A DNA stretch of 44,182 nt, from NCBI GenBank assembly GCA_018648265.1, contig JABGRN010000040.1, positions 1 to 44,182 on the forward strand. Direction: 5' to 3'. The stretch comes from Prolixibacteraceae bacterium (GTDB lineage Bacteria; Bacteroidota; Bacteroidia; Bacteroidales; Prolixibacteraceae). The notes beneath the pieces are model-generated. The model did not search any database. It was not told the DNA's origin and saw only the letters and a list, made by a program, of their open reading frames with translations. Below are positions 26,892-43,938 of this stretch, piece by piece (position 1 is the first letter of the stretch; each line of letters opens with the position of its first letter). Position numbers and translations under genes: made by a program.

Positions 26892-27326
26892 TCAATCTTT
26901 TTTAACATGCATTTTCAATATTCCATTTTTGATGTGAAATAACATGTAGTTTTCTTTTCGGTTTTGAAGTTCATCTTTAAACCAGTTCATGTGTTTTTGC
27001 AAAACTTCAACCGCAATATTGTGGTCATTTTCAGCAATTATTACAGGCACAAAATGTTGGTTTACCATTTTAATATTTCGCCCAAACTGTTTTGAAACAA
27101 GCACTGAAACACCTTTTTCTTTCAAAAATGAGATGATTGCACTCCCTTTCTTTTTTGAGCCATGTTCCTGAACTTCATCCATAGTTTTGAATGTATTTTT
27201 CAATTCCTCTTTAAACGAGAGTTCCTGGTTCTCGTAGGTGTAAATGGCAAATTTATCGGTATCTCCAAAATGTTTTTTTTCAAAAATGCCGTTATTGTTT
27301 AATGCTAATGCAAATGTTATATTCAT
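26892..27326 (-). CDS. NifX/NifB C-terminal-like protein (144 residues)
   Basis: Shows the dinitrogenase iron-molybdenum-cofactor-binding fold in its NifX/NafY-like form: an N-terminal strand MNITFALALNNNGIFEKKHFGD followed by KFAIYTYENQ, the GSKKKGSAIISFLKEKGVSVLVSKQFGRNIKMV core, and a Lys-rich end. The family binds Fe-S or Mo-Fe-S precursors in nitrogen fixers, but many members occur without nitrogenase, and no nif gene is in this window, so the partner is unknown. Two shorter members lie at 38235 and 40216. It stands alone between the MFS gene and the cytochrome bd operon. Confidence 0.8.
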   Translation of the reverse strand: MNITFALALNNNGIFEKKHFGDTDKFAIYTYENQELSFKEELKNTFKTMDEVQEHGSKKKGSAIISFLKEKGVSVLVSKQFGRNIKMVNQHFVPVIIAENDHNIAVEVLQKHMNWFKDELQNRKENYMLFHIKNGILKMHVKKD

Positions 27327-27750: not shown

Positions 27751-28905
27751 TCAATATTTCATTGAATCGTTCTCGATATCTGCTTCGCTAACTTTATTTT
27801 TGCTGAGCGATTTCCACGCATACCAAATGTATGCAATTACAACTGGCACAAGTAAAGAAACCCAGCTCATTGCAGTAAGTGTATATTTACTGGAACTTGC
27901 GTTTTCAATAGTGAGCGAACTTTGCAAGTCGAATGTTGAAGGATAAAATGCTGTGTTATTAAATCCAGCAAGCATTAAAACGGCAAGTACCGTAAGAACG
28001 GTTCCTGTTCCGGCAAACCAAATTCCTTTTGGAGAAGTTTTAAAAGCTCCAAGAAAAATTCCGTATAAAACCCCAACCACTCCAATTAAAAATAAGACGA
28101 GGACAATTGGCATTTCAATAAGATTATGCAGGTACTTGAATTTTTCCATAAACACCAGTTTAGTATCCGGGTCAACTGCAAAGCCCTCTTTTGTAAGAAT
28201 TAATCCAACAAAAAGCAGAAAAAATACCAGAAAAGCACTACTACATAATTTTAGTTTTTTGGCAGAACGTTTTATAATATTCTCGTTATCGATGTTATTA
28301 ATAAAATAGAGCATTGCCAAAACGCGTGATAAAAAAAGCAAGGCAAGTCCAAGCGATAAATTGGTAATGTTCAAAGCCGCTTCAAGTCCGTGTGTAGCAG
28401 TCTCCCAACGTGAAATTACAGGGTCGGCAATATTCGTAATATTCATCCTGTCAACCGAAAAAGCTGAGCCGGTAAAAAAAGTACCAACAGCAGCACCAAC
28501 TAAAACCGGTGCCAAAACTCCATTGATAAATAAAAAGGTATCGTAAGTTTTTCGTCCCAAGAAATTACTTGCTTTTGTACGGTATTCGTACGACACTGCC
28601 TGAATAATGAAACTAAACAGAATGAGTGTCCAAACCCAGTAAGCACCACCAAAACTTGTTGAATAAAAAAGAGGGAATGATGCAAAAAACGCACCTCCAA
28701 AAGTTACCAGCGTTGTAAAAGTAAGGTCCCATTTTCGACCAATTGAGTTTACTAAAAGCGACCTTTCCATATCGGTTTTTGAGAGTTGTTTCAATAAAGT
28801 TTGCCCGCCTTGAACAAACATTAGAAATACAAAAAGTGCAGCTAATAACGATACAATTATCCACCAATAAGCTTGTAGTGTTTCGTACGACATATTATTA
28901 AACAT
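27751..28905 (-). CDS. cydB: Cytochrome bd oxidase subunit II
   Basis: Second large subunit of the quinol:O2 oxidoreductase in the inner membrane: 384 residues with about 8-9 hydrophobic helices. Family-typical segments include WDLTFTTLVTFGGAFFASFPLFYSTS, SYEYRTKASNFLGR and GFNNTAFYPSTFD near the C-terminus. The ATG at 28905 overlaps the end of cydA by 8 nt and has AAGGAGGT 5 nt upstream inside cydA; a second ATG at 28893 lies 4 nt past the cydA stop. The first is preferred. Coupled translation with cydA is likely. Confidence 0.95.
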   Translation of the reverse strand: MFNNMSYETLQAYWWIIVSLLAALFVFLMFVQGGQTLLKQLSKTDMERSLLVNSIGRKWDLTFTTLVTFGGAFFASFPLFYSTSFGGAYWVWTLILFSFIIQAVSYEYRTKASNFLGRKTYDTFLFINGVLAPVLVGAAVGTFFTGSAFSVDRMNITNIADPVISRWETATHGLEAALNITNLSLGLALLFLSRVLAMLYFINNIDNENIIKRSAKKLKLCSSAFLVFFLLFVGLILTKEGFAVDPDTKLVFMEKFKYLHNLIEMPIVLVLFLIGVVGVLYGIFLGAFKTSPKGIWFAGTGTVLTVLAVLMLAGFNNTAFYPSTFDLQSSLTIENASSSKYTLTAMSWVSLLVPVVIAYIWYAWKSLSKNKVSEADIENDSMKY

Positions 28906-30427
28906 GGCTACCTCCTTCCTCGGGACCCTTTTTAATTTGGGCCATTAGTATTTTTATTTCGGCAATTAACAATACGGTGAACAGGGCAAAAAACATAAAA
29001 AATGTGGTTTGCACCGATCCAACGCTTAAATGAGAAGTAGAAACTCCGACGGGTAGGAGATCTTGAATAGTCCAGGGTTGGCGGCCAACTTCAGCAACAA
29101 TCCATCCCAACTCGGTTGCGATGTACCCGAGAAGTATCGACCAGACTGAAATGCGTAAAACAAATTTATTTTTGACTAGTTTATCTTTTATACTGGCATA
29201 AAGAAGGCAGGCAAAAAATGCAATAAAGAATAAACCCAGCGCAACCATTATGTGAAAAGAGTAAAAAGTTAAGGGTACGTTTGGTACAATGTCTTCATTG
29301 TTTTTGAAATAACCATAACCAAAGTGTGGATAATTTTTCTCAAATAGTTTTAGATTTGAATTGGCCAGTTCTGTATTACCGTCTTTTTTAGCTGTTTTAT
29401 AATCTGCCAGTGCCTGAATTGCGATTCTGCCTTTCTCCATTCTGGTCTCAGCCGAAAGAATACCTTGTTCTTCATTTCCATTTACCAGATCGTTAACACC
29501 CGGCACAAATGCATCGGCATCTCTAAATGCCATAATCGAGAGCATACTTGGCAATCGAATTCCTTTAAAGTTGAGATTGTCTGTGCGGTCATTTAAAAAT
29601 CCTAAAGCGTATAAATCAGCATTTTTTTCACCATCGTATAAACCTTCCATTGCAGCCAATTTCATGGGTTGTTTGTGGGCAACATCGTAGGCAGAGCTGT
29701 CGCCGGTGAAAGCTACAAATATTGAAGCTATTAAACCAAACACTGCTGCAATAAGAATACTTCTTTTTGCAAAAAGAAGATGCCGGTTTTTCAATAAAAA
29801 CCATGCGCTAACCGAGATCACAAACAAAGCCCCAATAATGTAAGCCTGCGAAATAGTGTGTAAAAATTTAAATACTGCTGTTTGCGAAAGGGCAACATCG
29901 AAAAAATTGACCATTTCGTTACGGGCAGTATCCGGGTTAAATTTTGTCCCCACCGGATTCTGCATCCAGGCATTTGCAATAAGAATCCACAGTGCCGATA
30001 AATTAGAACCAAATGCGACAAACCACGACGAAAGCATATGAAATTTTTTGCTAACACGTCCCCAACCAAAAAACATTACGGCAATAAAAGTCGATTCAAG
30101 GAAAAAGGCCAAAATTCCTTCGATTGCTAGCGGAGCACCAAATATGTCTCCAACAATCCACGAGTAATTCGACCAGTTTAATCCGAACTCGAACTCTAAA
30201 ATAATACCAGTTGCAACTCCAATTGCAAAGTTAATTCCGAATAATTTCATCCAGAATTTTGTCATAACCTTCCACTTTTCATCCCTCGTTTTGTAGTAAA
30301 ATGTGTGCATAAAAGCCACAATAAAAGACAAGCCAAGAGTAAGTGGAACAAAAATCCAATGGTACAGTGCAGTTAATGCAAACTGCGCTCTGGACCAATC
30401 TACTAAAGCTAAATCGAAATGTTCCAT
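28898..30427 (-). CDS. cydA: Cytochrome bd oxidase subunit I
   Basis: Haem-bearing subunit, 509 residues. The haem ligand His23 is in TALYHWIFVPLTLGLS, a second ligand is in FKFLHTISQAYIIG, and the acidic residues of the haem pocket are in IFGAPLAIEGILAFFLES. The quinol-binding loop begins with GDSSAYDVAHKQPMKLAAMEGLY, with the conserved Lys and Glu, and is followed by a long hydrophilic insert, so this is the long-Q-loop form. High-affinity oxygen reduction of this type fits an organism living at low oxygen. It follows the DUF4492 gene by 4 bp. Confidence 0.96.
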   Translation of the reverse strand: MEHFDLALVDWSRAQFALTALYHWIFVPLTLGLSFIVAFMHTFYYKTRDEKWKVMTKFWMKLFGINFAIGVATGIILEFEFGLNWSNYSWIVGDIFGAPLAIEGILAFFLESTFIAVMFFGWGRVSKKFHMLSSWFVAFGSNLSALWILIANAWMQNPVGTKFNPDTARNEMVNFFDVALSQTAVFKFLHTISQAYIIGALFVISVSAWFLLKNRHLLFAKRSILIAAVFGLIASIFVAFTGDSSAYDVAHKQPMKLAAMEGLYDGEKNADLYALGFLNDRTDNLNFKGIRLPSMLSIMAFRDADAFVPGVNDLVNGNEEQGILSAETRMEKGRIAIQALADYKTAKKDGNTELANSNLKLFEKNYPHFGYGYFKNNEDIVPNVPLTFYSFHIMVALGLFFIAFFACLLYASIKDKLVKNKFVLRISVWSILLGYIATELGWIVAEVGRQPWTIQDLLPVGVSTSHLSVGSVQTTFFMFFALFTVLLIAEIKILMAQIKKGPEEGGSHV

Positions 30428-30669: not shown

Positions 30670-30948
30670 TCACCCTTCACTTTCACGTTTTAAAAACCTT
30701 ACTTTTTCCACTTCATTCATTAACCTCACTTTGTGAGAAAAACTATAGCTCAAACTTCTTACCCGATGTTTAACCGACTGAATTATTTCATCGGCTATTG
30801 GAATTTTGGGAAATGGAAATGCAAAAACCACAAATACTGTATTTTCTGTCAAGCGAACATCAGCTATAATTCCTAATTTAACCAACGAATAATTAATAGT
30901 TGGGTGTTTTACCTTTTCCAGTTCTAAAATTATTTGTTGTAAATTCAT
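30670..30948 (-). CDS. MIP18/DUF59-like protein, copy 1
   Basis: A 92-residue cytoplasmic protein from the ATG at 30948 (a TTG at 30975 would add nine residues). KHPTINYSLVKLGIIADVRL with FAFPFPKIPIADEIIQSV matches the layout of MIP18-family iron-sulfur assembly proteins (DPxL..LGxI.dv...v.v....tP.CP), but the usual Cys in the loop is replaced: the segment reads PKIPIAD. It is about half identical by eye to its neighbour at 31053. It lies 34 bp before the DUF4492 gene, so it is probably in the cyd transcript. A true role in Fe-S assembly is uncertain because of the missing Cys. Confidence 0.65.
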   Translation of the reverse strand: MNLQQIILELEKVKHPTINYSLVKLGIIADVRLTENTVFVVFAFPFPKIPIADEIIQSVKHRVRSLSYSFSHKVRLMNEVEKVRFLKRESEG

Positions 30949-31052
30949 TATAGTTTTTGTTATTGAATTGCGCAACCGGACACGATATTATTCATTTCCT
31001 ACAGTTGCTGCAATTTTCGTGATTTATTTTTGCTCTGCTATTTCTAATTGTA

Positions 31053-31346
31053 TTATAGGCCTTTCCAGGCCTCTCCTTCTAATTGTAAAAATGTTGCTTT
31101 TTCTTCTTCATTCATAACCTTAACAATGTATTCCAGTTTTAATCCCATTGCTTTAACCGGCTCTTCAATAGACGAAATAAGCCGGTCGGCAATTGGTATG
31201 CCGGGGAACGGAAATGCAAAGGTGAGAATAACTGAATCTTCAGCTAATTCAATGTCTTTTACTATCCCAAGTTTTATTAACGAATAACTAATTGCAGGGT
31301 GTTCCACTTCTGAGAGTACACTTAAAACGTTTTCAATTGTTTGCAT
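31053..31346 (-). CDS. MIP18/DUF59-like protein, copy 2
   Basis: A 97-residue paralogue of the previous gene with the same blocks: EHPAISYSLIKLGIVKDIEL, LTFAFPFPGIPIADRLISSI and a C-terminal KVMNEEEKATFLQLE. The loop again lacks the Cys usual in MIP18 proteins (PGIPIAD). A 104-bp gap separates it from copy 1, containing no other frame that I can support. Tandem duplication before cydA suggests a shared function, perhaps as a heterodimer, but that is inference. Confidence 0.65.
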   Translation of the reverse strand: MQTIENVLSVLSEVEHPAISYSLIKLGIVKDIELAEDSVILTFAFPFPGIPIADRLISSIEEPVKAMGLKLEYIVKVMNEEEKATFLQLEGEAWKGL

Positions 31347-31495: not shown

Positions 31496-32857
31496 CTATT
31501 TCAAATTATTTTCAATTTTATCAATTATTATTTCGGCTGTTTTAATTAATATCGATTTTGTTGGGGCACTTGTTAATAAAGGATGTGAGCCAATTTGAAA
31601 TGAAATTAACTCGTAAACAGTAACCGATTTTTGAATGGCGAGGCTTATCGTATTAATCATTTCTCCGGCCGATTTTCCACCCCAGACTTCGCCACCCAAA
31701 ATTGAGCCGCAAGGAGAGGCATATAATTTAAGGGTGAGTGGTGAGGTATGCTTAAATGCAGCCGGGTGCGTGTCGAAATCGCTACATTCGGCAGAAACAA
31801 TTTTAATGTTTGAATCTTTTGCATTACTATCATTTACGCCGGCAGCAGCCATTGCAATGCCATTTATTTCAGTTGAAAAGACTGCAATTGTTCCGTTGAA
31901 ATTTTTCTTAATTTTTACGCCAAATAAATTATGGCCAAGAACACGGGCTTCTGCAGTTGCGGTAGAAGCTAGCATAACATAATCCGACCTTCCTGTTAAA
32001 AACCCAATTGTTTGAGAACAATCGCCAACAGCGCAAACGCCGTTTTCTTCGGTACGTTCGTAGCTGTCAACTTTTATGGCTCCCATTTTATTTAACTCCA
32101 ATCCGGCATTTTTTGCCAAATCGGTGTTTGGTTTGTAACCAATTGCCATAATTACGGCATCGCATTGTACCATTTCTCCAGAACTGAGCAAAACAGAAGA
32201 AACGTTTCCATTGTCACCATTTACTTTTTCTACACGTACCGATGTTTGTACATTTACCTTGGTTTCTGATAATGCTTTTGTTGCTTTCAGACTAAGTTCT
32301 CTTGAAAATGCTTTTGAAAAACATTGTTTTTCGCTTTCAATGAGTGTTACATTTTTATAGGAATGTAGAGCCAGTTGCTCCGCAACTTCAGCCCCAATAA
32401 ATCCGCCTCCAATTACAACAATATTCTTTTTCGTTTTTAATTCTTCGAACAATTGTTTGATGTAATTGTAACTTTTGCGGATATAGAAAACATTTTTTAA
32501 GTCGTATCCCGGAATAAAACTGGCTTCAATTACTTTTGAACCGGTAGCAAAAACAAGTTTATCATAAGTGTATTCTAATCCAGATTCTGTTTTTACAATT
32601 TTGTCTTTCAAATTAACATCAATAACACTGTCAGTTTGAATATCTCCTCCTAAATCAATAAAGGGTTTTGGCCCCATTACATTTTTATCTACACCATTAA
32701 GTTCGTGGAAAATATATGGAATTCCACACGGAACCAAACCTTTTTCTTCTTCCTTGAACATTAATATAGATTTGTTGGGGTATGCTTTTTTAGCAGTTAC
32801 CCCGGTAATTATGCCGGCCGGGCCAGCTCCAATAATTATAACATCGTAGTTTTTCAT
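31496..32857 (-). CDS. CoA-disulfide-reductase/Nox-like flavoprotein
   Basis: A 453-residue FAD- and NAD(P)H-dependent oxidoreductase. The FAD motif DVIIIGAGPAGIITGV is at residues 5-20, the NAD motif NIVVIGGGFIGAEVAEQLA near 145-163, and the second FAD motif GVCAVGDCSQ near 275. The Cys in LVPCGIPYIF (Cys44) is at the position of the single redox Cys of CoA-disulfide reductase, NADH oxidase and NADH peroxidase. A dimerisation domain follows. Which acceptor it uses (CoA disulfide, O2, peroxide or polysulfide) cannot be read from this. It is the last gene of the long metal/redox run, 9 bp after the radical SAM gene. Confidence 0.88.
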   Translation of the reverse strand: MKNYDVIIIGAGPAGIITGVTAKKAYPNKSILMFKEEEKGLVPCGIPYIFHELNGVDKNVMGPKPFIDLGGDIQTDSVIDVNLKDKIVKTESGLEYTYDKLVFATGSKVIEASFIPGYDLKNVFYIRKSYNYIKQLFEELKTKKNIVVIGGGFIGAEVAEQLALHSYKNVTLIESEKQCFSKAFSRELSLKATKALSETKVNVQTSVRVEKVNGDNGNVSSVLLSSGEMVQCDAVIMAIGYKPNTDLAKNAGLELNKMGAIKVDSYERTEENGVCAVGDCSQTIGFLTGRSDYVMLASTATAEARVLGHNLFGVKIKKNFNGTIAVFSTEINGIAMAAAGVNDSNAKDSNIKIVSAECSDFDTHPAAFKHTSPLTLKLYASPCGSILGGEVWGGKSAGEMINTISLAIQKSVTVYELISFQIGSHPLLTSAPTKSILIKTAEIIIDKIENNLK

Positions 32858-32866
32858 TTTAAAAAA

Positions 32867-33817
32867 TTAAGTAGTTGAAATCTTTTTGGTTTTTTTATAA
32901 AACAAGCCTCTTTCTTGTTCTATGGTTGTTATTTTTTTTTCGTTTTCTAATACATCGAGATATTTATTCACCTCGTTAATGTGTTTCCCCAGAATTTGAG
33001 AAAGGTCGATTAATGTACATGGCCTTCTTGAAATTGTTTCCAATATTGCAGATTCAGTATCTTTTCGGTACGATTTAATTTTTTTCCTGCTTGGTGCGGA
33101 AGCAATAATAACTACATTGTTTAAGTTCCAATAATCAACAATGTTTTGTAATTCAATATTACTTGCAGCTCGTAAATTTTTTATTGTTCCCGGTCGGTCG
33201 AGCGTATTAAGTTGTACTACATCTGGATTAATTTTTAGAATAGCTTCTTTTAAACTATCCAACTCTTTTCGGTGGTCGTTGTATCCGGGAATTATAAATA
33301 TTTCCAGGTTTATTTTTCCTGAATATTCATTTCTGAAATCTATAATTCCCTGAATGTAACTATCAATATTTAATGTTTTTTCAGGTAGATTAATTTTATG
33401 AAAAACGTGCTCGGTTGCTGCATCTAACGAAGGCAAAACAAGGTCGGCCTGCAATAATTCTATTCTTACTTGTTTGTTACTTAACAAGGTTCCATTTGTT
33501 AAAACTGCCACCGGAATACCGGGGTAATTTGTTTTAATAAAACTCAGTATTTCTCCAATTCCTGAGTTTAAAGTTGGTTCGCCCGCACCTGAGAAAGTAA
33601 TATAATCGGGAGTCGGGTTTTCTTTTAGAAAGTGATTTAATTCAGTAAAAATAGCATTAACAGGTACATATTCTTTCCGCTCGGTAGTAAGATTTGTTGT
33701 GCGTCCACATTCGCAGTACACACAATTTAACGAGCAAACTTTATGTGGCACCAAATCTATTCCTAACGACATTCCTAATCGTCGAGAGGGAACTGGTCCG
33801 AATAGATACTTATACAT
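32867..33817 (-). CDS. Radical SAM protein (COG0731-like) with C-terminal winged helix
   Basis: The N-terminus has FGPVPSRRLGMSLGIDLVPHKVCSLNCVYC: cluster ligands Cys28, Cys32 and Cys35 (CxxxCxxC), the S-adenosylmethionine-binding GAGEPTLN near residue 85, and a TIM-barrel-like middle. The first block is that of the COG0731 group. From about residue 240, RRPCTLIDLSQILGKHINEVNKYLDVLE looks like a winged helix. No SPASM cluster is visible, so it is not a sulfatase maturase. The reaction is unknown. It lies 9 bp before the flavoprotein gene and 93 bp after the ferredoxin fusion gene. Confidence 0.85.
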   Translation of the reverse strand: MYKYLFGPVPSRRLGMSLGIDLVPHKVCSLNCVYCECGRTTNLTTERKEYVPVNAIFTELNHFLKENPTPDYITFSGAGEPTLNSGIGEILSFIKTNYPGIPVAVLTNGTLLSNKQVRIELLQADLVLPSLDAATEHVFHKINLPEKTLNIDSYIQGIIDFRNEYSGKINLEIFIIPGYNDHRKELDSLKEAILKINPDVVQLNTLDRPGTIKNLRAASNIELQNIVDYWNLNNVVIIASAPSRKKIKSYRKDTESAILETISRRPCTLIDLSQILGKHINEVNKYLDVLENEKKITTIEQERGLFYKKTKKISTT

Positions 33818-33910: not shown

Positions 33911-35851
33911 TCACAACTTAAATATTTTGAAAAAATCATCATCTATTTTTGTTTCAACAATTCCTTGTTCAACTAAAATATCAAAATAGGCTTTTACTTT
34001 TTTTACCAATTCATCTCCTTCAACATATTCAAATTTTACTCTGTTCAGAAAAAGTTCGATGCTGTCAACCGGTTGGCGCATTAAATCGAACGATAACTTT
34101 GCAGCCTCGTGTTTATTCTTGTTTACCCAGTTAATTGCATCTTTTAATTCATTTAAAAAAACTTCAGTCAGTTCCGGGTGATTTCGAGCAAATTCACCTT
34201 TTAAAACCAGCCCTGCATTTGGAAAACTTCCAAAATTTTCATTAATGTCGTTCCATATTTCGTTGTATGAAATGATTGAAATCTCTTCACCTTTCTTTTC
34301 CAAAGCTTTTATTGCGTAGCTGGCTTCAGGCTCTCGTAAAATAACGGTATCTGCTCGTCCGCTAACAAAATCTTTGAAAATTTGTTCGGGGCGACCAAAG
34401 GGTTGTCCATAAACAAAATTAAAATCATCGGTATTTAATCCTTTTGCTTTAAGCAGATATTTAGTGATTTTTGCTGGTGGAGCTTCCTCGAATAGGGGAG
34501 TATGAATTTGTTTTCCTTGAATATCTTCTAACTTGTTCGCTTTGTATCCACGAGTTAAAATGTAGAAGTTATCCCACACAAACAGAGAAGGAATAATAAT
34601 ATCGCTCTCTTTTAATTTGGCCGATGTAATAAGAGCGGAGAAACTAATGTCGGCTCTTCCGTTTACAATCCAGCTTAAATGTTTTTCAGTTTCTTCCCAA
34701 ACTTTAAGCTCTTTAATATTAATTGCTTTTCGAATTTTCTCGGATTGTAAAAGCCGCATAATAACCGGATAAGCAACCGGAGTAGCAGATTGAATTACTA
34801 CCGATGGTTTGTCGCTGGCAATTTCACCTGCTTCGGTTTCCGAAACTTTTTTGTGGAAATAGACCCATATTTCGCCCGCTCCTTTTTCTTCCGTAATACT
34901 TTCGAACCCCATTTCGTTAAGCATATTTATTAATGGGTAAGGTTCAAATGTTTGTATCAAAATAAAACCACTATCTTCTTCTATTTCGTACGAGTGTTTT
35001 ATAATAATATCAAATGGGTCGGTTTGCATATTTCGAACATCCAATTGCTCAAAATCCTCTTTTCGTTCAGTCCAGTCTTTTTCTTCCTTTATTGGTTTTG
35101 GGTTGAATATTGAAACTCTAAATTCCCGGGTTTTTTCGATATTGAATTTTAATCCCAGTCCGACAATGGTTTTCAATAGTGCATCAGGCCTCTCGATTGA
35201 AATAATTACAAAGTTTTGTTGTGGCCCAAGATTCGAAACTTTTTCAATTAATTCTGAAATAATATCAATGTTGTAAATAAATCGTTCTGTGCTTTCCTCC
35301 CATGTAATTTCTTCGCCGTCCATTTCAATCCCGTCCGATTCTTTCGAAATACATTCAGGCATATTTTTAACAAGCGCATCTTCAGTTCCTAGCTTATTGT
35401 TTAAGGCATGTAGAACTTCACAAACAGATAAATCGGCAAGTTTTGCAGCATCTCTAAATGTGGCAAAGCGGGCAATTGTATTGTACATTGCCGGGTTTTG
35501 TAGTTTTTTAAATCGTGGCGAAAGTTCTGTTAATACCGGTTTTAATTGTGGATAAGTGTCTAAGGTTGCCTTTACGGTATCTTTTGCAAGAATAGGATTT
35601 AAATCTGTCTTTTCATTTGAAGCTGCCTCATGTTCATCTTTTTCCGGTTTCGCTTTAACTTCTTCAACCGAAATTGCCATAACCGGACAAACATCAAGTG
35701 CCTGCTCGCATTCATCCTCTTCATCCTGGGATTTAGGTTGATTTTTAACAAATGCAATATTTTCATCGTTCATCTCAAAGTTTTTGGCAGCAACCATTGC
35801 ACAGGCTCTGCAACCAATGCACTCGTCAGCATCTACTTTTAATATTTTCAT
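33911..35851 (-). CDS. Ferredoxin-DUF1858-DUF2249-substrate-binding-protein fusion
   Basis: A 646-residue cytoplasmic protein (no signal peptide) with an unusual domain order. Residues 1-60: one-cluster ferredoxin, Cys11, Cys14, Cys17 and Cys55 (CxxCxxC...CP). About 86-152: a DUF1858 helical domain (LKPVLTELSPRFKKLQNPAMYNT). About 190-335: one or two DUF2249-like domains (GPQQNFVIISIERPDALLKTIV and FILIQTFEPYPLINMLNEMGF). About 349-640: an NMT1/THI5-type periplasmic-binding fold (VVIQSATPVAYPVIMRLL, GRADISFSALITSAKL, SGRADTVILREPEAS). Such a binding fold is normally secreted; here it is inside the cell and linked to an Fe-S cluster. The gene starts 11 bp after a MinD-type ATPase gene. I know of no described function; a ligand or redox sensor, or a cofactor carrier, are possibilities. 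Confidence 0.8.
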   Translation of the reverse strand: MKILKVDADECIGCRACAMVAAKNFEMNDENIAFVKNQPKSQDEEDECEQALDVCPVMAISVEEVKAKPEKDEHEAASNEKTDLNPILAKDTVKATLDTYPQLKPVLTELSPRFKKLQNPAMYNTIARFATFRDAAKLADLSVCEVLHALNNKLGTEDALVKNMPECISKESDGIEMDGEEITWEESTERFIYNIDIISELIEKVSNLGPQQNFVIISIERPDALLKTIVGLGLKFNIEKTREFRVSIFNPKPIKEEKDWTERKEDFEQLDVRNMQTDPFDIIIKHSYEIEEDSGFILIQTFEPYPLINMLNEMGFESITEEKGAGEIWVYFHKKVSETEAGEIASDKPSVVIQSATPVAYPVIMRLLQSEKIRKAINIKELKVWEETEKHLSWIVNGRADISFSALITSAKLKESDIIIPSLFVWDNFYILTRGYKANKLEDIQGKQIHTPLFEEAPPAKITKYLLKAKGLNTDDFNFVYGQPFGRPEQIFKDFVSGRADTVILREPEASYAIKALEKKGEEISIISYNEIWNDINENFGSFPNAGLVLKGEFARNHPELTEVFLNELKDAINWVNKNKHEAAKLSFDLMRQPVDSIELFLNRVKFEYVEGDELVKKVKAYFDILVEQGIVETKIDDDFFKIFKL

Positions 35852-35862
35852 ATATCTAGTAA

Positions 35863-36732
35863 TTAGTTCTGAATAATTTTATCCCAAATGGAATAAAATT
35901 CTTTGCTAATATTTTCTTCAGGAATGTATTCTACAATTGTTTTTCCATGAATCATCGACTCTACCATTTTAGTGTTAAAAGGTAAATTACCTACTAAAGG
36001 AATTTTGTTTTCGATTAGGTAATCTTCTACTTTTTTTGTAACCGATGAATTTAAATCGTATTTGTTGATTACCGCGTAAACCGGAATGTTAAAAGAATTG
36101 ACCAAAACAACCAATCTTTTTGCATCGTGAAGTCCAGAAAGTGTTGGTTCAATAACCAGCAACACTACATCGGTTCCGGTTACTGAAGCAATTGCAGAAC
36201 ATCCAATTCCCGGAGGGCCATCGTTGATAATAAAATCAGCTTTTATATCGGTTGCAATTTCTTTTGCTTTTCGCCTGACTTCGGTAACCAGTTTCCCAGA
36301 GTTTTCTTCACCCGGTCCCATTTTTGCGTGAACTAATTTTCCAAATCGTGTTTCTGAAACATACCAAAAGTTGTTGTTGTTATGAATCGATTCAATGGCA
36401 TTTTCAGGACAAACACGTTCGCACAAACGGCAACCTTCACATTGAAATGGATTCACTTCCAACTGTTCAGAGGAATTTGGATGAATGGCATCGAAGTGAC
36501 AGTGTTCAACACATAACCCGCAATTGGTACATACTTCGGGGTCGATTACAGCAACTGTACCGCTATCGAAATCGTAGGTTTCTTTTATTTCAGGATTAAA
36601 GATAAGGTGCAAATCAGCAGCATCAACATCGTTGTCGCAGAACACTGCATTTTTTGCAACGGATGCAATTGCCGCAGCCACACTTGTTTTTCCTGCACCT
36701 CCTTTACCGCTTAAAATGGTAATTTCCTTCAT
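35863..36732 (-). CDS. MinD-family ATPase with two 4Fe-4S motifs, copy 1
   Basis: A 289-residue P-loop ATPase of the MinD/Mrp/NifH superfamily with a bacterial-ferredoxin insert (COG1149 type). The deviant Walker A is LSGKGGAGKTSVAA (residues 7-20), and a second nucleotide region is FIINDGPPGIGCSA. The insert has Cys68, 71, 74, 78 and Cys98, 101, 104, 108, two complete CxxCxxCxxxC sets. Such proteins occur as tandem pairs in many anaerobes near NifX-like genes; the function is not established, probably ATP-driven delivery or reduction of Fe-S or metal clusters. It precedes the fusion gene and is the paralogue of the next ATPase. Confidence 0.88.
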   Translation of the reverse strand: MKEITILSGKGGAGKTSVAAAIASVAKNAVFCDNDVDAADLHLIFNPEIKETYDFDSGTVAVIDPEVCTNCGLCVEHCHFDAIHPNSSEQLEVNPFQCEGCRLCERVCPENAIESIHNNNNFWYVSETRFGKLVHAKMGPGEENSGKLVTEVRRKAKEIATDIKADFIINDGPPGIGCSAIASVTGTDVVLLVIEPTLSGLHDAKRLVVLVNSFNIPVYAVINKYDLNSSVTKKVEDYLIENKIPLVGNLPFNTKMVESMIHGKTIVEYIPEENISKEFYSIWDKIIQN

Positions 36733-36880: not shown

Positions 36881-37750
36881 TCATGATGGCAAATTCTTAC
36901 TCATTAACTCTTCTGCAATATCCATGTAAGTGCCTTCAATTTCTGCTGGTATATTTTCGAAAATTTTCCCCGATGCATAATTGGCAGCATATTCTTTTAC
37001 AAAAGGAATATCGCTTAAGAATTCAATATTTTGTTTGTTGAGATAGCTGTACACATCATCAGAACCCAATCCGGCTTTGTTTACAATTACACCAAATGGT
37101 TTTTTCAAATCTTTTAGTAATTCAACGGTAATTTTCAGGTCGTGCAATCCAAACGGCGTTGGCTCGGTAACCAAAACAATATAATCCACGTCTGAAACCG
37201 TTTCAACCACCGGGCAACTTGTTCCTGGAGGCGCATCAAAAATTATTGTAGAATTATTTTGCGACACCTCTTTTTTAACTTCTTTAATTAACGAGGTTTG
37301 CATGGCTGAACCTATTTCTAAACGGCCTTCTATTAAGCCATTTCCAATACCTGTATCGAAATGAGAAATTACGCCCAGTGGTTGAGGATATTCTGTAATG
37401 GCATCAAATTCGCAGGCAACACTACATGCACCGCACGAATGACAGAGGTCGTTATTCACTTCTGCAAACTCAAGGTTTTTAACAATTGTAATTGCGTTAA
37501 ACTCACACCAGTCGGCGCATTTATGGCAAAATGTACATTTTGTTGTGTCAATTTTCGGAATAAGCTGATGTACTTCTTTTTTTTCTATCAGTTTCGGGTT
37601 ATCAAAAAAAATGGCATCGTTTGGTTCTTCAACATCACAATCTACCAATCGAATATTTTTATCAAAAAATTTTCCAATTGTTCGGTACAGATTTACCGAA
37701 ACGGTTGTTTTTCCTGTACCACCTTTCCCACTTGCTACTGCAATCTTCAT
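36881..37750 (-). CDS. MinD-family ATPase with two 4Fe-4S motifs, copy 2
   Basis: Paralogue of copy 1, also 289 residues: Walker A VASGKGGTGKTTVSVN (residues 5-20), IIFDAPPGTSCPVVET in the second nucleotide region, and Cys72, 75, 78, 82 with Cys102, 105, 108, 112 for two 4Fe-4S clusters. Its ATG shares ATGA with the TGA stop of the trmO-like gene, a 4-nt overlap that implies coupled translation. The pair of unlike copies suggests a heterodimer in which each partner contributes an ATP site and Fe-S clusters; this is inference. Confidence 0.88.
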   Translation of the reverse strand: MKIAVASGKGGTGKTTVSVNLYRTIGKFFDKNIRLVDCDVEEPNDAIFFDNPKLIEKKEVHQLIPKIDTTKCTFCHKCADWCEFNAITIVKNLEFAEVNNDLCHSCGACSVACEFDAITEYPQPLGVISHFDTGIGNGLIEGRLEIGSAMQTSLIKEVKKEVSQNNSTIIFDAPPGTSCPVVETVSDVDYIVLVTEPTPFGLHDLKITVELLKDLKKPFGVIVNKAGLGSDDVYSYLNKQNIEFLSDIPFVKEYAANYASGKIFENIPAEIEGTYMDIAEELMSKNLPS

Positions 37751-38232
37751 TGTTTGTTTAATATTGTTTCATCGGGAATATTCCCATTTGCAAAATGCTT
37801 GTCAACCCAGCCCGATTTTACATTTTCCCTGTTATCAAAGTGTTTTATAAAAGGTTTAATATCAAGGAGGGGAGTGCCGTCGAAAATATCGACCTGAGAA
37901 AAAAACAATTTGTTTTTAATTATATTTTTAATTTTTACTACTGAAAAACCAATTTTGTTGGGACGGTGTGGACTGCGAATTGCAAAAATCCCGTGCTCAA
38001 CAGATTCAAGAAAAGGTTTGGATTTAATTTCTTCTTTTGTAGATTTATGAAAATGATAAATTAAAATTGCATGGCTAAATCCGTCAAGATGTAATAATCC
38101 ATCGGAATACTTGTTGTGCAAAACACAACAACCTTCCACGCTATCCTTAAAACGCCCCTGAATTGGAATATTTTTTAGCGATTTGTATGGTGTATTAATT
38201 ATTCCGATTGGATATAAAATTATATCCTCCAT
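37747..38232 (-). CDS. trmO: TrmO-type tRNA m6t6A37 methyltransferase
   Basis: Matches the UPF0066/TrmO family, which methylates N6-threonylcarbamoyladenosine at position 37 of tRNA-Thr in E. coli. The start YPIGIINTPYKSLKNIPIQGRF, the centre SVEHGIFAIRSPHRPNKIGFSVVKI and the end IFDGTPLLDIKPFI are the conserved blocks. At 161 residues it is the short form lacking a C-terminal extension. I chose the ATG at 38232, 2 bp after the NifX-like gene; a TTG at 38247 would overlap that gene. In anaerobes this family is often next to NifX-like and MinD-type genes, so another substrate is possible here. Confidence 0.85.
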   Translation of the reverse strand: MEDIILYPIGIINTPYKSLKNIPIQGRFKDSVEGCCVLHNKYSDGLLHLDGFSHAILIYHFHKSTKEEIKSKPFLESVEHGIFAIRSPHRPNKIGFSVVKIKNIIKNKLFFSQVDIFDGTPLLDIKPFIKHFDNRENVKSGWVDKHFANGNIPDETILNKQ

Positions 38233-38234
38233 TT

Positions 38235-38567
38235 TTAATGGGTACAAAGGTTGTCTCCAGTATCAAGCTGATTGTTCAAATAATTTTCAACTAACTCTTT
38301 GGAGGTTCCAGTGGCAACTCCCATAAAAACTTCAATATTATTTTGTGCAAACAAATTTTGTGCTTGTTGTCCCATGCCACCTGCAATAATTACCTCAACA
38401 CCCTTTTCTGCTAAAAATCTTGGGTAGGCTCCCGGTTGATGTACCGGAGGTGTAAGCATTTCTTCACTTATCACTTTATTATCTTTTGTTTCAACAACAG
38501 CAAATTTTTCACAATGACCAAAATGTGCTGTTATCTGGCCATTTAACATTGGAATAGCAAACTTCAT
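38235..38567 (-). CDS. NifX-like protein (110 residues)
   Basis: Dinitrogenase iron-molybdenum cofactor biosynthesis fold: MKFAIPMLNGQITAHFGHCEKFAVVE at the N-terminus, with His and Cys in the cofactor-facing position, then EVIIAGGMGQQAQNLF, the GGMG loop of the family, and the short tail GDNLCTH, a variant of the C-terminal Cys-His tail seen in many such proteins. It presumably binds an Fe-S or metal-sulfide unit in the cytoplasm. It is 35 bp after the cupin gene and 2 bp before trmO. No nitrogenase genes are present, so the recipient of the cofactor is unknown. Confidence 0.88.
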   Translation of the reverse strand: MKFAIPMLNGQITAHFGHCEKFAVVETKDNKVISEEMLTPPVHQPGAYPRFLAEKGVEVIIAGGMGQQAQNLFAQNNIEVFMGVATGTSKELVENYLNNQLDTGDNLCTH

Positions 38568-38602: not shown

Positions 38603-38929
38603 TTATTGTTTTTGTTTGTATGGATCCCAAACTACTAAAATTAAAGCTCCGTTTTCCGATTCGAAGGGACCATGATCTTCATGTGCCGCAATAAGTTGAT
38701 AGGAACCAGCAGGATAATTATTCCCTTTACTTGAATAGGAACCTTCTAAAACAAAATGTTGTTCTGTGGTGATGTGTGAATGTGGATCCATTTTAAATCC
38801 TTTTGGAAACTTAAGCAATATTGTTTTTGCACTGTTTTCGTCGCGCAAAACTTTTCTGAGTGTACCATTGGGATAATTATCAGCTTGTTCCCAACCTTTT
38901 TCGTTGAATACGTTCATTAAATTTTTCAT
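38603..38929 (-). CDS. Small cupin-domain protein
   Basis: A 108-residue single-cupin protein. The metal-binding motifs are visible as GFKMDPHSHITTEQHFVLEGSY (two His, Glu/Gln, His) and a later AAHEDHGPFESE. It is cytoplasmic. The ATG at 38929 has AAGGAGG nine nt upstream, unusually strong for Bacteroidota, which decides this start over the Met four codons later. Single cupins of this type bind Fe, Mn or Ni and act as small dioxygenases or sensors; the ligand here is unknown. It lies between the zinc-ribbon and NifX-like genes of the metal/redox run. Confidence 0.8.
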   Translation of the reverse strand: MKNLMNVFNEKGWEQADNYPNGTLRKVLRDENSAKTILLKFPKGFKMDPHSHITTEQHFVLEGSYSSKGNNYPAGSYQLIAAHEDHGPFESENGALILVVWDPYKQKQ

Positions 38930-39320: not shown

Positions 39321-39629
39321 TCATTCTCCTTTTGTTTTTGAGAGTTTATCCTCTAACAAAGACAATTGATTTTTGAGTGTATTAATCTCATTTTCTATAA
39401 TTGTCTTGTCCGAAGTCTCAGGGATATTTTCAAAGTTTTGGTTTCGAAATCCATGTCTGAATCCCATTCCACGGTTGTGGGTAAAACCACTGCGAAATCC
39501 TCTACCAAATCCCCTGCCTCCATAAAAACGTTCATCATTTTCAGGATAGTTGTTGCTTGCGCAGGCTCCCATCCTTCTTCCCGTCATCGGACCTTGTCCG
39601 GCGGGCCCTGTTCTGTCAATTCCTGGCAT
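39321..39629 (-). CDS. DUF5320 protein
   Basis: A 102-residue protein that begins PGIDRTGPAGQGPMTGRRMGAC, the hallmark of DUF5320, continues with a Gly-Arg-Phe-rich middle (GGRGFGRGFRSGF) and ends in a coiled coil (ENEINTLKNQLSLLEDKLSK). The family is regularly next to NifX-like proteins and MinD-type Fe-S ATPases, as here, but its role is unknown. The single N-terminal Cys might be a metal ligand. Confidence 0.85.
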   Translation of the reverse strand: MPGIDRTGPAGQGPMTGRRMGACASNNYPENDERFYGGRGFGRGFRSGFTHNRGMGFRHGFRNQNFENIPETSDKTIIENEINTLKNQLSLLEDKLSKTKGE

Positions 39630-40215: not shown

Positions 40216-40533
40216 TTAGTTTTGAATTTTGTCAATTATTTCCTGAACAGTTTTACTCCCTTCATCCATAATAATCATTTGCACTTTGAAACGCTCTAAC
40301 AGAGATTTTGCTTTTGGACCAAAGTCGCCGGAAATTACTTTTTTTACTCCCAGCTCGGCTACTGTTTCAGCAGTTTTTGTACCGGCCCCTCCTTGTGCAT
40401 TCATATTTTCATTCTCAATGAAATCAGTTTCATTTGTTTCCGGATTATATACACAAAACCATGCAGCCCGACCAAACCTTAAGTCGAACTTCGATTTTAG
40501 ATTATTACCTGTTGATGTAATTAACATTTTCAT
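40216..40533 (-). CDS. NifX-like protein (105 residues), first gene of the run
   Basis: Same fold as the genes at 26892 and 38235: KMLITSTGNNLKSKFDLRFGRAAWFCVYN, then GAGTKTAETVAELGVKKVISGDFGPKAKSLLE. The Cys is in the second strand rather than next to a His. It has a well-matched promoter upstream and starts the long minus-strand run ending at 31496. Alternative ATG two codons downstream. Confidence 0.88.
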   Translation of the reverse strand: MKMLITSTGNNLKSKFDLRFGRAAWFCVYNPETNETDFIENENMNAQGGAGTKTAETVAELGVKKVISGDFGPKAKSLLERFKVQMIIMDEGSKTVQEIIDKIQN

Positions 40534-41105: not shown

Positions 41106-41405
41106 TTAAATCCCACCAATAGAAAAAAGTGCTGCTAATATTCCAACAATGAAGCAAATAAGAATTATTACTTTAATCGTTTTTAATTGTGATTCAATAT
41201 TTTTTAAAGTAGTTCTTAGAAAGTATTTCTGCATAATTTCAAATTCTGGGGAATCGTTTATTTCTTTTGCTAATTTATTTACATCCTGATCCTCATTTTT
41301 TTCTTTTATTTGAATAATTTCATCTTTGAACAGTTTGTAATTATCAAATCTCATTACTTTGTCGAAGTGTAATAATACATAAGAAGTTAATGCTTGTTTG
41401 GTCAT
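41106..41405 (-). CDS. Small protein with C-terminal membrane anchor
   Basis: From the ATG at 41405, 99 residues: a charged helical N-terminal part (IQIKEKNEDQDVNKLAKEIND) and a C-terminal hydrophobic helix IKVIILICFIVGILAALFSIG with nothing after it but two residues. A TTG start at 41447 is possible but less likely. Family unknown. A tail-anchored helical protein at the end of a mobile-element gene run could act at the inner membrane. Confidence 0.6.
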   Translation of the reverse strand: MTKQALTSYVLLHFDKVMRFDNYKLFKDEIIQIKEKNEDQDVNKLAKEINDSPEFEIMQKYFLRTTLKNIESQLKTIKVIILICFIVGILAALFSIGGI

Positions 41406-41512
41406 AACGATAGTTTTAAGGTAAATATTTATTTGAATTTTAACCAAATATAAGCCATTACAACCAATATGTTAGCCTCTCTGGTTAAAAATATGGAAAA
41501 TAAGGTTGGAAT

Positions 41513-41538
41513 AAAAAAGCCTCTTTAACAGGCACTTT
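41513..41538 (-). terminator. Rho-independent terminator within the element
   Basis: On the minus strand GCCT-GTTAAAG-AGGC is followed directly by TTTTTT (41518-41513), with A-rich bases before the stem. It lies 20 bp after the stop at 41559 and separates the gene at 41106 from the upstream run. Confidence 0.6.
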
Positions 41539-41558
41539 TCATAAAACTTTTGGGGAAT

Positions 41559-41774
41559 TTATTTAAAACTAATTCCAAAGATTGTTTGTCCAAGTTTATT
41601 GTAAATTTCCTTTAACGATTCAATTTCTTTCTGCCTTTCAGTTAATTCAACTCCCTCATGCTGAAATGTTACAGGTGCAGGAAAACCAATTTTCAGAACA
41701 GAATTAAATTGTTCATTTGTAATTTCATTATTAAAATATAGTTCTAATAATTTAATCCTGGCTTGTCTATCCAT
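41559..41774 (-). CDS. Small helical protein of the mobile element
   Basis: A 71-residue protein, mostly helical, with no signal: RIKLLELYFNNEITNEQFNSVLKIGF at the start resembles a short-helix DNA- or protein-binding segment, and ELTERQKEIESLKEIYNKLG is a likely amphipathic helix. I do not recognise a family. It follows the preceding gene by 3 bp, so it is translated in the same run. Confidence 0.6.
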   Translation of the reverse strand: MDRQARIKLLELYFNNEITNEQFNSVLKIGFPAPVTFQHEGVELTERQKEIESLKEIYNKLGQTIFGISFK

Positions 41775-41777
41775 ATC

Positions 41778-42068
41778 TTAAATATTTTTGATTCTTTCTA
41801 TTAATGATTTTAATTCCACATCTGTTAAACTTTCAAAATCAATAGAATTTGATAATGTTGTACTTTGCAATTTAGGAACTACAAATTCCGATAACCTGAT
41901 TATGAAGTTTAAAGCCTTATCGGGGTTTTCCTTTGAAACAATCTTTAACCAATTTTCCACATTTGAAAAGTTATTTTCAATTAATTTCTGATAAACCTCT
42001 CTAATCTCACAAGTTAATTTATTTGGTGTTCCTAATTCCCTGCCACCTGTTTTTTTTCCCTTTGCCAT
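41778..42068 (-). CDS. GGRxxGTPNK-motif small protein, copy 2
   Basis: A 96-residue protein that begins MAKGKKTGGRELGTPNKLT, the basic N-terminal motif of DUF5681-like and small-terminase-like phage proteins (GGRxxGTPNK), followed by a helical body (EIREVYQKLIENNFSNVENWLKIV). The first 19 residues are identical to those of the next gene (42092), while the rest has diverged. A DNA-binding role is likely from the basic motif; packaging is possible but not supported by other genes here. Confidence 0.7.
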   Translation of the reverse strand: MAKGKKTGGRELGTPNKLTCEIREVYQKLIENNFSNVENWLKIVSKENPDKALNFIIRLSEFVVPKLQSTTLSNSIDFESLTDVELKSLIERIKNI

Positions 42069-42076
42069 TTGTTAAT
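42013..42076. repeat. 64-bp direct repeat, copy A
   Basis: Covers the 5' end of the gene at 41778 and the bases before its ATG. It matches 42312-42375 over 64 bp with one T/C difference. The conservation is much higher than in the rest of the two genes. Confidence 0.85.
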
Positions 42077-42091
42077 TTTAAAGTTAACATA

Positions 42092-42367
42092 CTAATTGTC
42101 TGGAAATTGTTTCGATACATTTTTATATACAATCGTTTTGGGTTCATTTATAATTGCTTCTAATTGTGTTGCTTGCAACCGGGGCAAAGAATAATGGAGT
42201 AGCTTTTCAAATAATGCAATCCTTTTTTCAGGTTCTAAGTCTATAAAGTCATTTTCAATCTGTTCCCAGTTATCAGTTAAAAATTCACTTATTCTTTTTC
42301 TTAATTCAGAGGTTAATTTATTTGGTGTCCCTAATTCCCTGCCACCTGTTTTTTTTCCCTTTGCCAT
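42092..42367 (-). CDS. GGRxxGTPNK-motif small protein, copy 1
   Basis: A 91-residue paralogue of the gene at 41778 with the same first 19 residues and an otherwise different helical body (ELRKRISEFLTDNWEQIENDFIDLEPEKRIALFEKLLHY). The shared layout (basic motif, then helices ending in LPRLQAT or VPKLQST) shows descent from one gene. It is 23 bp upstream of copy 2. A role in DNA binding is likely. Confidence 0.7.
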   Translation of the reverse strand: MAKGKKTGGRELGTPNKLTSELRKRISEFLTDNWEQIENDFIDLEPEKRIALFEKLLHYSLPRLQATQLEAIINEPKTIVYKNVSKQFPDN

Positions 42368-42375
42368 TTGTTAAT
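42312..42375. repeat. 64-bp direct repeat, copy B
   Basis: Partner of 42013-42076 with a single mismatch, covering the start and leader of the gene at 42092. Confidence 0.85.
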
Positions 42376-42419
42376 ATTTTAAAGTCAAATATCTATTTTA
42401 CTCTACTTTAGATAATACC

Positions 42420-42453
42420 CGGTTACAAATTCAATGTACAAAACACATCTTAA
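42420..42453. repeat. 34-bp imperfect repeat downstream of Rep, copy A
   Basis: CGGTTACAAA, nine variable bases, then CAAAACACATCTTAA. It matches 43392-43425 at both ends with equal spacing. It lies beyond the Rep stop (42462) and in the leader of the gene at 42092. Confidence 0.65.
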
Positions 42454-42461
42454 TTTAGAGG

Positions 42462-43391
42462 CTAATAATTCCGGGCTGCCTCTTTTACTTTTTTATTTAA
42501 TTCATTTATTAACTCGTTACCCGTTTCATTAAATGTTTTTTTGCTTAATTGTTTTATTGAGTTCCTTAAATCATAAGCCTGTTTTTTGCTTATTTGCTCG
42601 CTTTCCTGCCACTCTTTTACTTTGTGCAGTACATGGGATTGCCCCATTTCTAAAACTGTAAATAAAGCCAGGTTCTCAATAAATTCCTTTTTGCTCCCGG
42701 TTGGTATCATACTTGTTAATTTTGAATTTATTTTTTGAATTGCTAAATATTCATTTTTCCAACGTTTTATAAGTTGCCGATAAAAGTCCTCATCATAAAG
42801 TAATCCGGCTGTAATCTCCGACCTGTTAAACTGTTCTTTCAACCGCTTTATAAACCTTAATTCATACCTTAAAACATTCCTGTTTTTGTATATTCCCGGT
42901 ATTGGTTGCCGCTTTTCTTTTTGTTCATGTACTTTGCCATAAAACAGTTTTTGCCTTAACTTATTATTGAAATATAAACCGTTGTTCTGTTCTAACCGGT
43001 TGTAATATTGTGCCTCTCCGAGATATGGGTAGTACAATTTTTCAGGATATTGCATGATGAAATTTTGTGAAAAGTCAATCCGGGTAACATTAGCCAAATG
43101 AAAAGGCAAATGTAAGTTATCGCTTATTTTCTGAATTGCTTGTTTGGTGTCACCTTTGCCCAAAGTTTTAAAATTATTACCAAACCAAAATTTACAAATG
43201 CTGCTATCATATATTTTAACCCGATTTTCTTTCACACTTACTTTCAGGCTACCTAAATAACCGTTCACATACTCACCAAACTTTGAAGTTCCACTACTTG
43301 TATATTCAGTTAAGTATTGTGGAATAGTTTCAAGTAAATTAATATCGGGGGTTGCTTCTTTGTACAAAGTCAAATCTAAATTATCATACAT
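42462..43391 (-). CDS. Phage/plasmid replication protein, II/X type
   Basis: A 309-residue protein resembling Bacteroidota replication initiators of the filamentous-phage gene II/X type. The stretch NVLRYELRFIKRLKEQF, the LYDEDFYRQLIKRWKNEYLAI block and the N-terminal RIDFSQNFIMQYP are the features I recall for this family, which nicks DNA to start rolling-circle replication; which Tyr is catalytic I cannot assign. The C-terminus is helical and basic. It is flanked on both sides by a 34-bp repeat. It supports the idea that the element replicates as a circle. Confidence 0.75.
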   Translation of the reverse strand: MYDNLDLTLYKEATPDINLLETIPQYLTEYTSSGTSKFGEYVNGYLGSLKVSVKENRVKIYDSSICKFWFGNNFKTLGKGDTKQAIQKISDNLHLPFHLANVTRIDFSQNFIMQYPEKLYYPYLGEAQYYNRLEQNNGLYFNNKLRQKLFYGKVHEQKEKRQPIPGIYKNRNVLRYELRFIKRLKEQFNRSEITAGLLYDEDFYRQLIKRWKNEYLAIQKINSKLTSMIPTGSKKEFIENLALFTVLEMGQSHVLHKVKEWQESEQISKKQAYDLRNSIKQLSKKTFNETGNELINELNKKVKEAARNY

Positions 43392-43425
43392 CGGTTACAA
43401 AAAAAGGGTATAAAACACATCTTAA
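43392..43425. repeat. 34-bp imperfect repeat upstream of Rep, copy B
   Basis: Abuts the Rep start codon at 43391. Same ends and spacing as 42420-42453 (CGGTTACAAA ... AAAACACATCTTAA). It could be a Rep or regulator binding site, or a shared promoter. Confidence 0.65.
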
Positions 43426-43442
43426 CATGGTGAAATGAAAAA

Positions 43443-43459
43443 GGGGGAATTTTTCCCCC
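43443..43459. terminator. GC-rich hairpin between two element genes
   Basis: GGGGGAA (43443-43449) and TTCCCCC (43453-43459) pair across a TTT loop, 9 bp after the stop at 43468. T-rich bases follow on the minus strand (CCCCCTTTTTC), so partial termination before rep is plausible. Confidence 0.5.
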
Positions 43460-43467
43460 CGGTTTCA

Positions 43468-43938
43468 TTATTTGCCGGTAACGTTTTTTGTAACCGCCTT
43501 ATGTCTTAATATTTCCATTTCTGGTTTCAGTTCCATATCAATAAGTAAATCCCAAAGGGCGTTTACATCATTCCTTAACCCCCTTGCAATAAATATTTCA
43601 ATTGTATTTATACCGATTTGTTTAAAGTCGGGATTGAAAACAATTATACACCCGTCATTTGTGCCGTTAATATCTCCAAAAGCATAATTTTTGTTTAAAT
43701 CGGGTCGGGTGAGACTTGTAATATTATGGCTGCCTTTGCTTATTGCCAAATCAGCATTTTTCTTTTTCCAACGGTCGGGGCGTTCACCACAATAAAACGA
43801 CAAACCCCCGACATTAAACCCCCGTTTGTTAATTAATAAACTTTCAAATAAATCATATTCACCAGTTGAGGTTGTAATATCGTACCTGCTTTTTGCATCG
43901 GTTAATTTTTCCCCTTTGTAATAATCTGTTAAAATCAT
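43468..43938 (-). CDS. Unknown protein preceding Rep
   Basis: A 156-residue soluble protein with a mixed alpha/beta look: KSRYDITTSTGEYDLFESL, a Gly-rich NVGGLSFYCGERPDRWKKK and a FNPDFKQIGINTIEIFIARG segment. No signal or membrane helix. I recognise no family. Its ATG shares ATGA with the stop of the HTH gene, so the two are translationally coupled. Confidence 0.65.
   Translation of the reverse strand: MILTDYYKGEKLTDAKSRYDITTSTGEYDLFESLLINKRGFNVGGLSFYCGERPDRWKKKNADLAISKGSHNITSLTRPDLNKNYAFGDINGTNDGCIIVFNPDFKQIGINTIEIFIARGLRNDVNALWDLLIDMELKPEMEILRHKAVTKNVTGK

Follow-up and report, generated by a model that had tools for sequence, protein, structure and literature searches.

The 44,182-nucleotide window analysed here, a contig of a Prolixibacteraceae bacterium, carries on its minus strand a gene (33911..35851) for a 646-residue protein that joins a ferredoxin to a periplasmic-binding fold by way of DUF1858 and DUF2249 domains, and the evidence supports a chain that resides in the cytosol. 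The gene neighbourhoods of this fusion suggest a response to nitric oxide (NO) or related nitrogen oxides. The reading favoured here, tentatively and with a confidence somewhat below even, is that of a cytosolic ligand receptor wired to an iron-sulfur (Fe-S) cluster and acting in the nitrosative/anaerobic stress response.

The chain opens at residue 1 with a single-cluster [4Fe-4S]-type ferredoxin (residues 1-66, 35654..35851, minus strand, as are all the features of the window given below), whose ligands C11, C14, C17 and C55 lie where an initial annotation of the window, made from the letters alone, had placed them (residues 11-55). The N-terminus is not hydrophobic and no export signal was found in the window fusion, in agreement with the same annotation. 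DUF1858 follows (residues 90-146, 35414..35584), with a profile match of 7.8e-13 and 48.8 bits against a cut-off of 32.2; the cysteines C144, within this domain, and C167, shortly past it, are invariant across the 14 aligned rows of the fusion family. The one or two DUF2249-like blocks noticed at the outset resolve into a clear unit (residues 270-333, 34853..35044; 5.9e-7, at the cut-off) and a probable first unit (residues 188-255, 35087..35290), in which the predicted elements stand in the order of DUF2249 and the profile match is weak. The DUF2249 score falls slightly under the cut-off in the fusions of loci L002, L007, L014, L027 and L047. Residues 346-646 (33914..34816) contain a complete two-lobed type 2 periplasmic-binding fold, SsuA/NMT1/PqqT-like and cytosolic, according to a single structural model predicted for the full chain; the binding fold first proposed for the C-terminal half thus held up. 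Domains of this type usually act outside the cell. The Pfam NMT1 score of the window fusion is 20.4, against a curated cut-off of 20.5 that the fusions of L005 (27.5) and L027 (21.0) exceed, and for those of L002, L007, L014 and L047 the family is not among the matches at E 0.01. Inspection of the sequence revealed no cysteine in residues 346-646, profile scans no ATPase domain in the chain, and the scanned neighbours of the window fusion no permease or ATPase gene of the ATP-binding cassette (ABC) type. From the proposal of a ligand- or cofactor-binding protein coupled to an Fe-S cluster the joining of the fold to a ferredoxin stands, and the redox coupling remains presumptive. What had been overlooked is the DrpB-type denitrification module in the middle of the chain, as well as the pointers to NO among relatives of the protein.

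The fusion is rare and occurs in some Bacteroidota. The survey of the phylum for the same architecture that the initial annotation had proposed recovered it in full in 14 genomes, at 57-80% identity to the window copy: the window's own, four of 100 related genomes (G021, G025, G027 and G069), one of 394 other genomes of a phylum sample (G109, locus L047) and those of loci L002-L009 from a species collection. Locus L001 is the contig of G025, counted once, L025 belongs to G027 and L004 to G497; the copies of L003, L006 and L008 are truncated by contig ends. A peptide-pattern scan of genome contigs yielded nine loci, one of them labelled Chlorobiota, and since such a scan detects close relatives only, absence of the fusion elsewhere is not demonstrated. 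The plasmids of PLSDB gave matches to the binding domain only, with no full fusion, and no earlier description of the fusion was found in the open-access literature searched, supplements excluded.

The connection to NO lies in the order of genes. In G109 an Rrf2 gene, a quinol NO reductase (qNOR) gene and the fusion gene follow one another on one strand, and L005 presents the same row; the reductase was assigned from Pfam COX1 plus a NorB cytochrome-c-like domain, with no NCBIfam model naming it, and the Rrf2 proteins beside the fusions pass as members of the Rrf2 superfamily, not as NsrR. In L005 (7309-10782) a PepSY_TM membrane module, the ferredoxin, DUF1858, DUF2249 and the binding fold form one frame of 1157 residues, and the first of these would give the chain an electron path at the membrane. 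In G070 a free PepSY_TM protein with 56% identity to this module is located behind an Rrf2, NO reductase and DUF438-like gene row. The reductase was found in six of the 14 fusion genomes, one presence being a fragment of 37 residues only, and these six are the copies outside the window's clade. The association extends to DUF1858-bearing relatives that are not fusions: among 101 genomes 30 have such a relative (a few of them frames that differ in length and architecture), 40 a reductase homologue and 20 both (p 7e-4, computed without correction for genome relatedness), and in 15 of those 20 the two genes lie within 6 kb of each other.

The middle module points in the same direction. In the extracts of PMC6282519, Thermus thermophilus DrpB consists of DUF1858 and two DUF2249 domains and governs nitrate-reductase expression with DrpA, and it is required for that enzyme to be fully active; in drpAB double mutants NarG is made but has little activity. 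DrpB-sized proteins with the same domains exist in other Bacteroidota (L051 and L052), and their DUF2249 scores as TusA too. The gene after the one in L052 is weakly COX1-like, below cut-off, and is followed by a DUF59 gene; in L051 the same places hold a gene of equal length, not profiled, and a DUF59 gene. DUF1858 and DUF2249, which have no known job, recur beside denitrification and NO genes, and their attachment to a domain with a definable ligand and to a spectroscopically visible Fe-S cluster offers a direct handle on the role of the module. Another unusual mix of these modules is a single chain with DUF2249, hemerythrin, PAS and DUF1858 at L056:8769-10541.

Conservation within the fusion is highest in the binding domain: 134 of its 301 residues (45%) are invariant in the 14 rows, whereas the ferredoxin has 17 of 66, in a count that ignores the gaps of the cut copies, and the invariant runs include QSATPVAYP, FVWDNF and LREPEA. 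This strong conservation argues for one same ligand in the two settings of the fusion, beside qNOR and in an operon of the window's clade that resembles the ORP complex of Desulfovibrio. In the favoured reading the C-terminal fold would close on a small ligand, in all likelihood one that arises from NO chemistry, such as a nitrogen oxyanion, and the ferredoxin would read or supply low-potential electrons. Its cluster, like others of this kind, would itself be sensitive to NO and O2. The DUF1858-DUF2249 part would relay the joint state, ligand present and cluster intact, to a partner that would control or mature respiratory metalloenzymes. The class of ligand, the redox coupling, the partner and the direction of signalling are what we infer from this arrangement. 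The most economical account is that of a receptor serving the response to NO or another nitrogen oxide, later adopted by the ORP-like operon, an order of events that depends on the midpoint root of the tree.

Several observations weigh against this reading. Only two of the 14 fusion copies adjoin qNOR, and in four of the six genomes with the reductase the visible neighbours of the fusion are unrelated to NO (Na+/H+ antiporters; a TsuA-like gene; OMP/PorT-like and NAD synthase genes; EgtD-like and Dus genes). The eight copies without reductase form one clade that includes the window (support 100/99), so that the split of six against none tracks the tree and may reflect a single change; completeness (89-100%) is given for three of these eight genomes, which renders the absences in the clade softer. 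The window's genome gave no match to qNOR, to Hcp or to NnrS. Hcp was matched in none of the 14 fusion genomes and in five of 14 control genomes; the NnrS query matched none of the 101 genomes and no control genome either. The window fusion lies among MinD, NifX and DUF59 genes, which do not imply NO. A match to NrfA at E <= 0.001 in nine of the 14 fusion genomes, strong in six, and its presence in the window's genome are not decisive.

Evidence from free relatives of the binding domain is equally divided. The nearest found for residues 346-646 are about 19-30% identical, and two sets, binding proteins linked to NnrS and lipoprotein-like proteins of Bacteroidota, tie at a best score of 76.3 bits each. 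A tree of seven of the 14 fusion rows with 16 free relatives places neither set nearer, with a long fusion stem (2.3), and six loci of the lipoprotein-like set, compared by BLAST to the panel and by eye, contain no recognised NO gene. These points, too, count against the favoured reading. Unlike the fusion, proteins of both sets look exported, and their annotated loci also encode an ABC permease and ATPase. Among plasmids, 31 records hold a free relative at E <= 0.01, and 20 of them were surveyed. An NnrS gene was found by tblastn 1.6-4.4 kb away in 11, with one alphaproteobacterial query that matches 56 of 72,556 records; four more have NnrS by annotation and one has hcp and hemerythrin. No NO gene was seen in three examined records, and NnrS was unmatched in one unannotated stretch; the small p-value of the NnrS comparison takes no account of the many records that are near-copies of one another. 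ABC transporter genes travel with NnrS in L059, L060 and L127-L130, accompanied by a TonB receptor in L060, L128 and L129, and constitute an NO-linked uptake system worth its own study. The lipoprotein-like relatives in L097-L102 have a recurring short gene (84-105 residues) and, nearby, a long exported-looking gene that, judged by eye only, was taken to encode a TonB receptor.

In the window, the fusion belongs to a longer operon. Upstream, the stop codon of a MinD-type ATPase with two inserted [4Fe-4S] motifs (35863..36732) lies 11 nucleotides ahead of the fusion start, and another ATPase of the same kind (36881..37750) precedes it. Further up lie TrmO (37747..38247; TIGR00104, 1.1e-36), a stand-alone Di-Nase (Nitro_FeMo-Co) protein (38235..38567) that resembles the C-terminal part of MrpORP (NF041136, 3.3e-36 over 265-365 of 365), a ChrR-type cupin (38603..38929), a DUF5320 protein (39321..39629) and a second Di-Nase protein (40216..40533). 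Downstream, a radical S-adenosylmethionine protein (32867..33817) adjoins the fusion, followed by a flavoprotein similar to CoA-disulfide reductase, below the equivalog cut-off (31496..32857), two DUF59 (FeS_assembly_P) proteins (31053..31346 and 30670..30975), the cytochrome bd oxidase genes (27751..30427; cydA 28898-30427, cydB 27751-28905) and a third Di-Nase protein (26892..27326). The cydB product passes its cut-off; that of cydA is strong (6.6e-140) yet under the cut-offs of the two models listed. Directly upstream of the operon stands a replication initiator of the filamentous-phage G2P type (42462-43391; PF05144, 3.8e-17), surrounded by small open reading frames (41106-43938), perhaps a small phage-like element of single-stranded DNA.

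MinD-type genes lie upstream of six of the eight copies in the window's clade, namely those of the window, L001 (G025), L025 (G027), L002, L006 and L009; the contig of L003 begins within the fusion, and L004 has upstream one unassigned frame. The second ATPase was found at E <= 1e-40 in 58 of the 101 genomes, and of 30 loci around it, compared with the panel by BLAST over about 1.5 kb on each side, three have the fusion behind, one a free ferredoxin in its slot and 26 neither. The fusion is hence an accessory of the operon in one lineage. The idea that the two Fe-S ATPases serve the fusion, as initially annotated, is possible for one clade at most, given those 26 loci. The free ferredoxin (L058:4049-4240, genome G021) begins 11 nucleotides past the ATPase stop, the same spacing as the window fusion, and G021 also holds a full fusion on a different contig. 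In an alignment of fusion ferredoxins other than those of L003, L004 and L005, it is 48-52% identical to those of the window, L001 and L025, and 38-48% to those of eight other fusions; it may be either an ancestral form or a cut-down fusion.

A serious rival, possible and clearly behind the receptor reading, makes the protein a maturation or repair factor whose ferredoxin would reduce, and whose DUF1858/DUF2249 part would dock, metal-sulfur centres that NO or oxygen has damaged, while a small metal or sulfur species would be held by the binding domain. Its partners in the window would be the MinD-type Fe-S ATPases, the Di-Nase and the DUF59 proteins. The six MinD-bearing loci of the window's clade speak for it, as do the DUF59 genes of the window's row and those directly behind the fusion in L001 and L025, the known fusions of DUF1858 with SufT/DUF59 (in the part of PMC4982691 concerned) and of DUF2249 with an Fe-S carrier P-loop NTPase (likewise PMC11218638), the poorly active NarG of drpAB double mutants (PMC6282519) and the passage of clusters from MrpORP to Orp3/Orp4 (PMC6345978, in extract). 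The fusion-free majority of MinD loci argues against repair, together with G069, G109 and G497, which have the fusion and in which the first ATPase is unmatched at E <= 1e-30; the last of these belongs to the window's clade (L004), and in G109 the fusion follows the NO reductase instead. TusA has the sulfur-carrier cysteine. The window's DUF2249 contains no cysteine and hence is not a TusA-type sulfur carrier, and the binding domain lacks cysteine as well, a further point against repair. Somewhat less probable than repair would be a composite role, that of a new intracellular receptor, a periplasmic-type trap transferred to the cytosol and linked within one chain to a [4Fe-4S] carrier and a DrpB module, in which a nitrosative ligand and the state of the cluster jointly gate electron flow or the repair of metal centres damaged by NO, later recruited in the window's lineage to an ORP-type operon for Fe-S/Mo cofactors; nitrite, nitrate and low-molecular nitrosyl-iron species may be its ligands.

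Two further explanations are improbable. By analogy with Thi5, MqnD and DszB, in which binding folds turned into enzymes, the protein might reduce a substrate held in its cleft with electrons fed by the ferredoxin. Thi5 carries a cysteine-rich iron motif, unlike the window's cysteine-free binding domain, and no pathway gene common to all loci was seen, several contigs being short. Slightly less probable still is a role on the sulfur side, in which the protein would sense thiosulfate, sulfite or a sulfonate and be coupled to persulfide chemistry. The SsuA-type score of the binding domain, a CoA-disulfide-reductase-like gene near the fusion in both the window and L002, an SQR-like flavoprotein (below cut-off) behind the fusion of L003, with a partial flavoprotein frame in the same place in L009, a weakly TsuA-like gene in L027 and, in L006, a cytochrome of the octaheme tetrathionate-reductase family that exceeds its cut-off would fit this role; these sulfur genes differ between loci, each in a minority, and the CoA-disulfide-reductase-like gene also occurs behind fusion-free MinD loci (L072, L075 and L087).

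Against this background the receptor reading can be compared with known systems. The window operon shares with the ORP complex two MinD-type ATPases, each with two [4Fe-4S] motifs, and Di-Nase proteins; it differs in that Di-Nase is separate and that MrpORP, the fusion of P-loop NTPase and Di-Nase, was not found. The portions of PMC6345978 that bear on the complex name five proteins, and the present fusion is not among them. Orp8, with a Mo-Cu sulfide cluster, is a further mark of the complex. The gene pairs of Bacteroidota that combine DUF438, hemerythrin and PAS with DUF1858 and DUF2249 (L048, L054, L055 and L103, in L054 and L103 behind a qNOR homologue) have the DUF1858-DUF2249 part in common with the fusion, but as separate small proteins without ferredoxin or binding domain. 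DrpB presents the same order of middle domains and a tie to nitrogen-oxide respiration, a locus for which surrounds the fusion in L047 and L005 and not in the window; however, DrpB has about 273 residues and neither ferredoxin nor binding domain, whereas the window fusion has four kinds of domain. CmpC, which senses nitrate according to the extracts of PMC13249358, offers a precedent for a cytosolic binding fold in the role of a sensor. Like the C-terminal regulatory domains of CmpC and NrtC, the binding fold of the fusion is cytosolic and part of a multidomain protein, but theirs is joined to an ABC ATPase and not to Fe-S, DUF1858 and DUF2249 domains, a combination that did not turn up in the literature searched.
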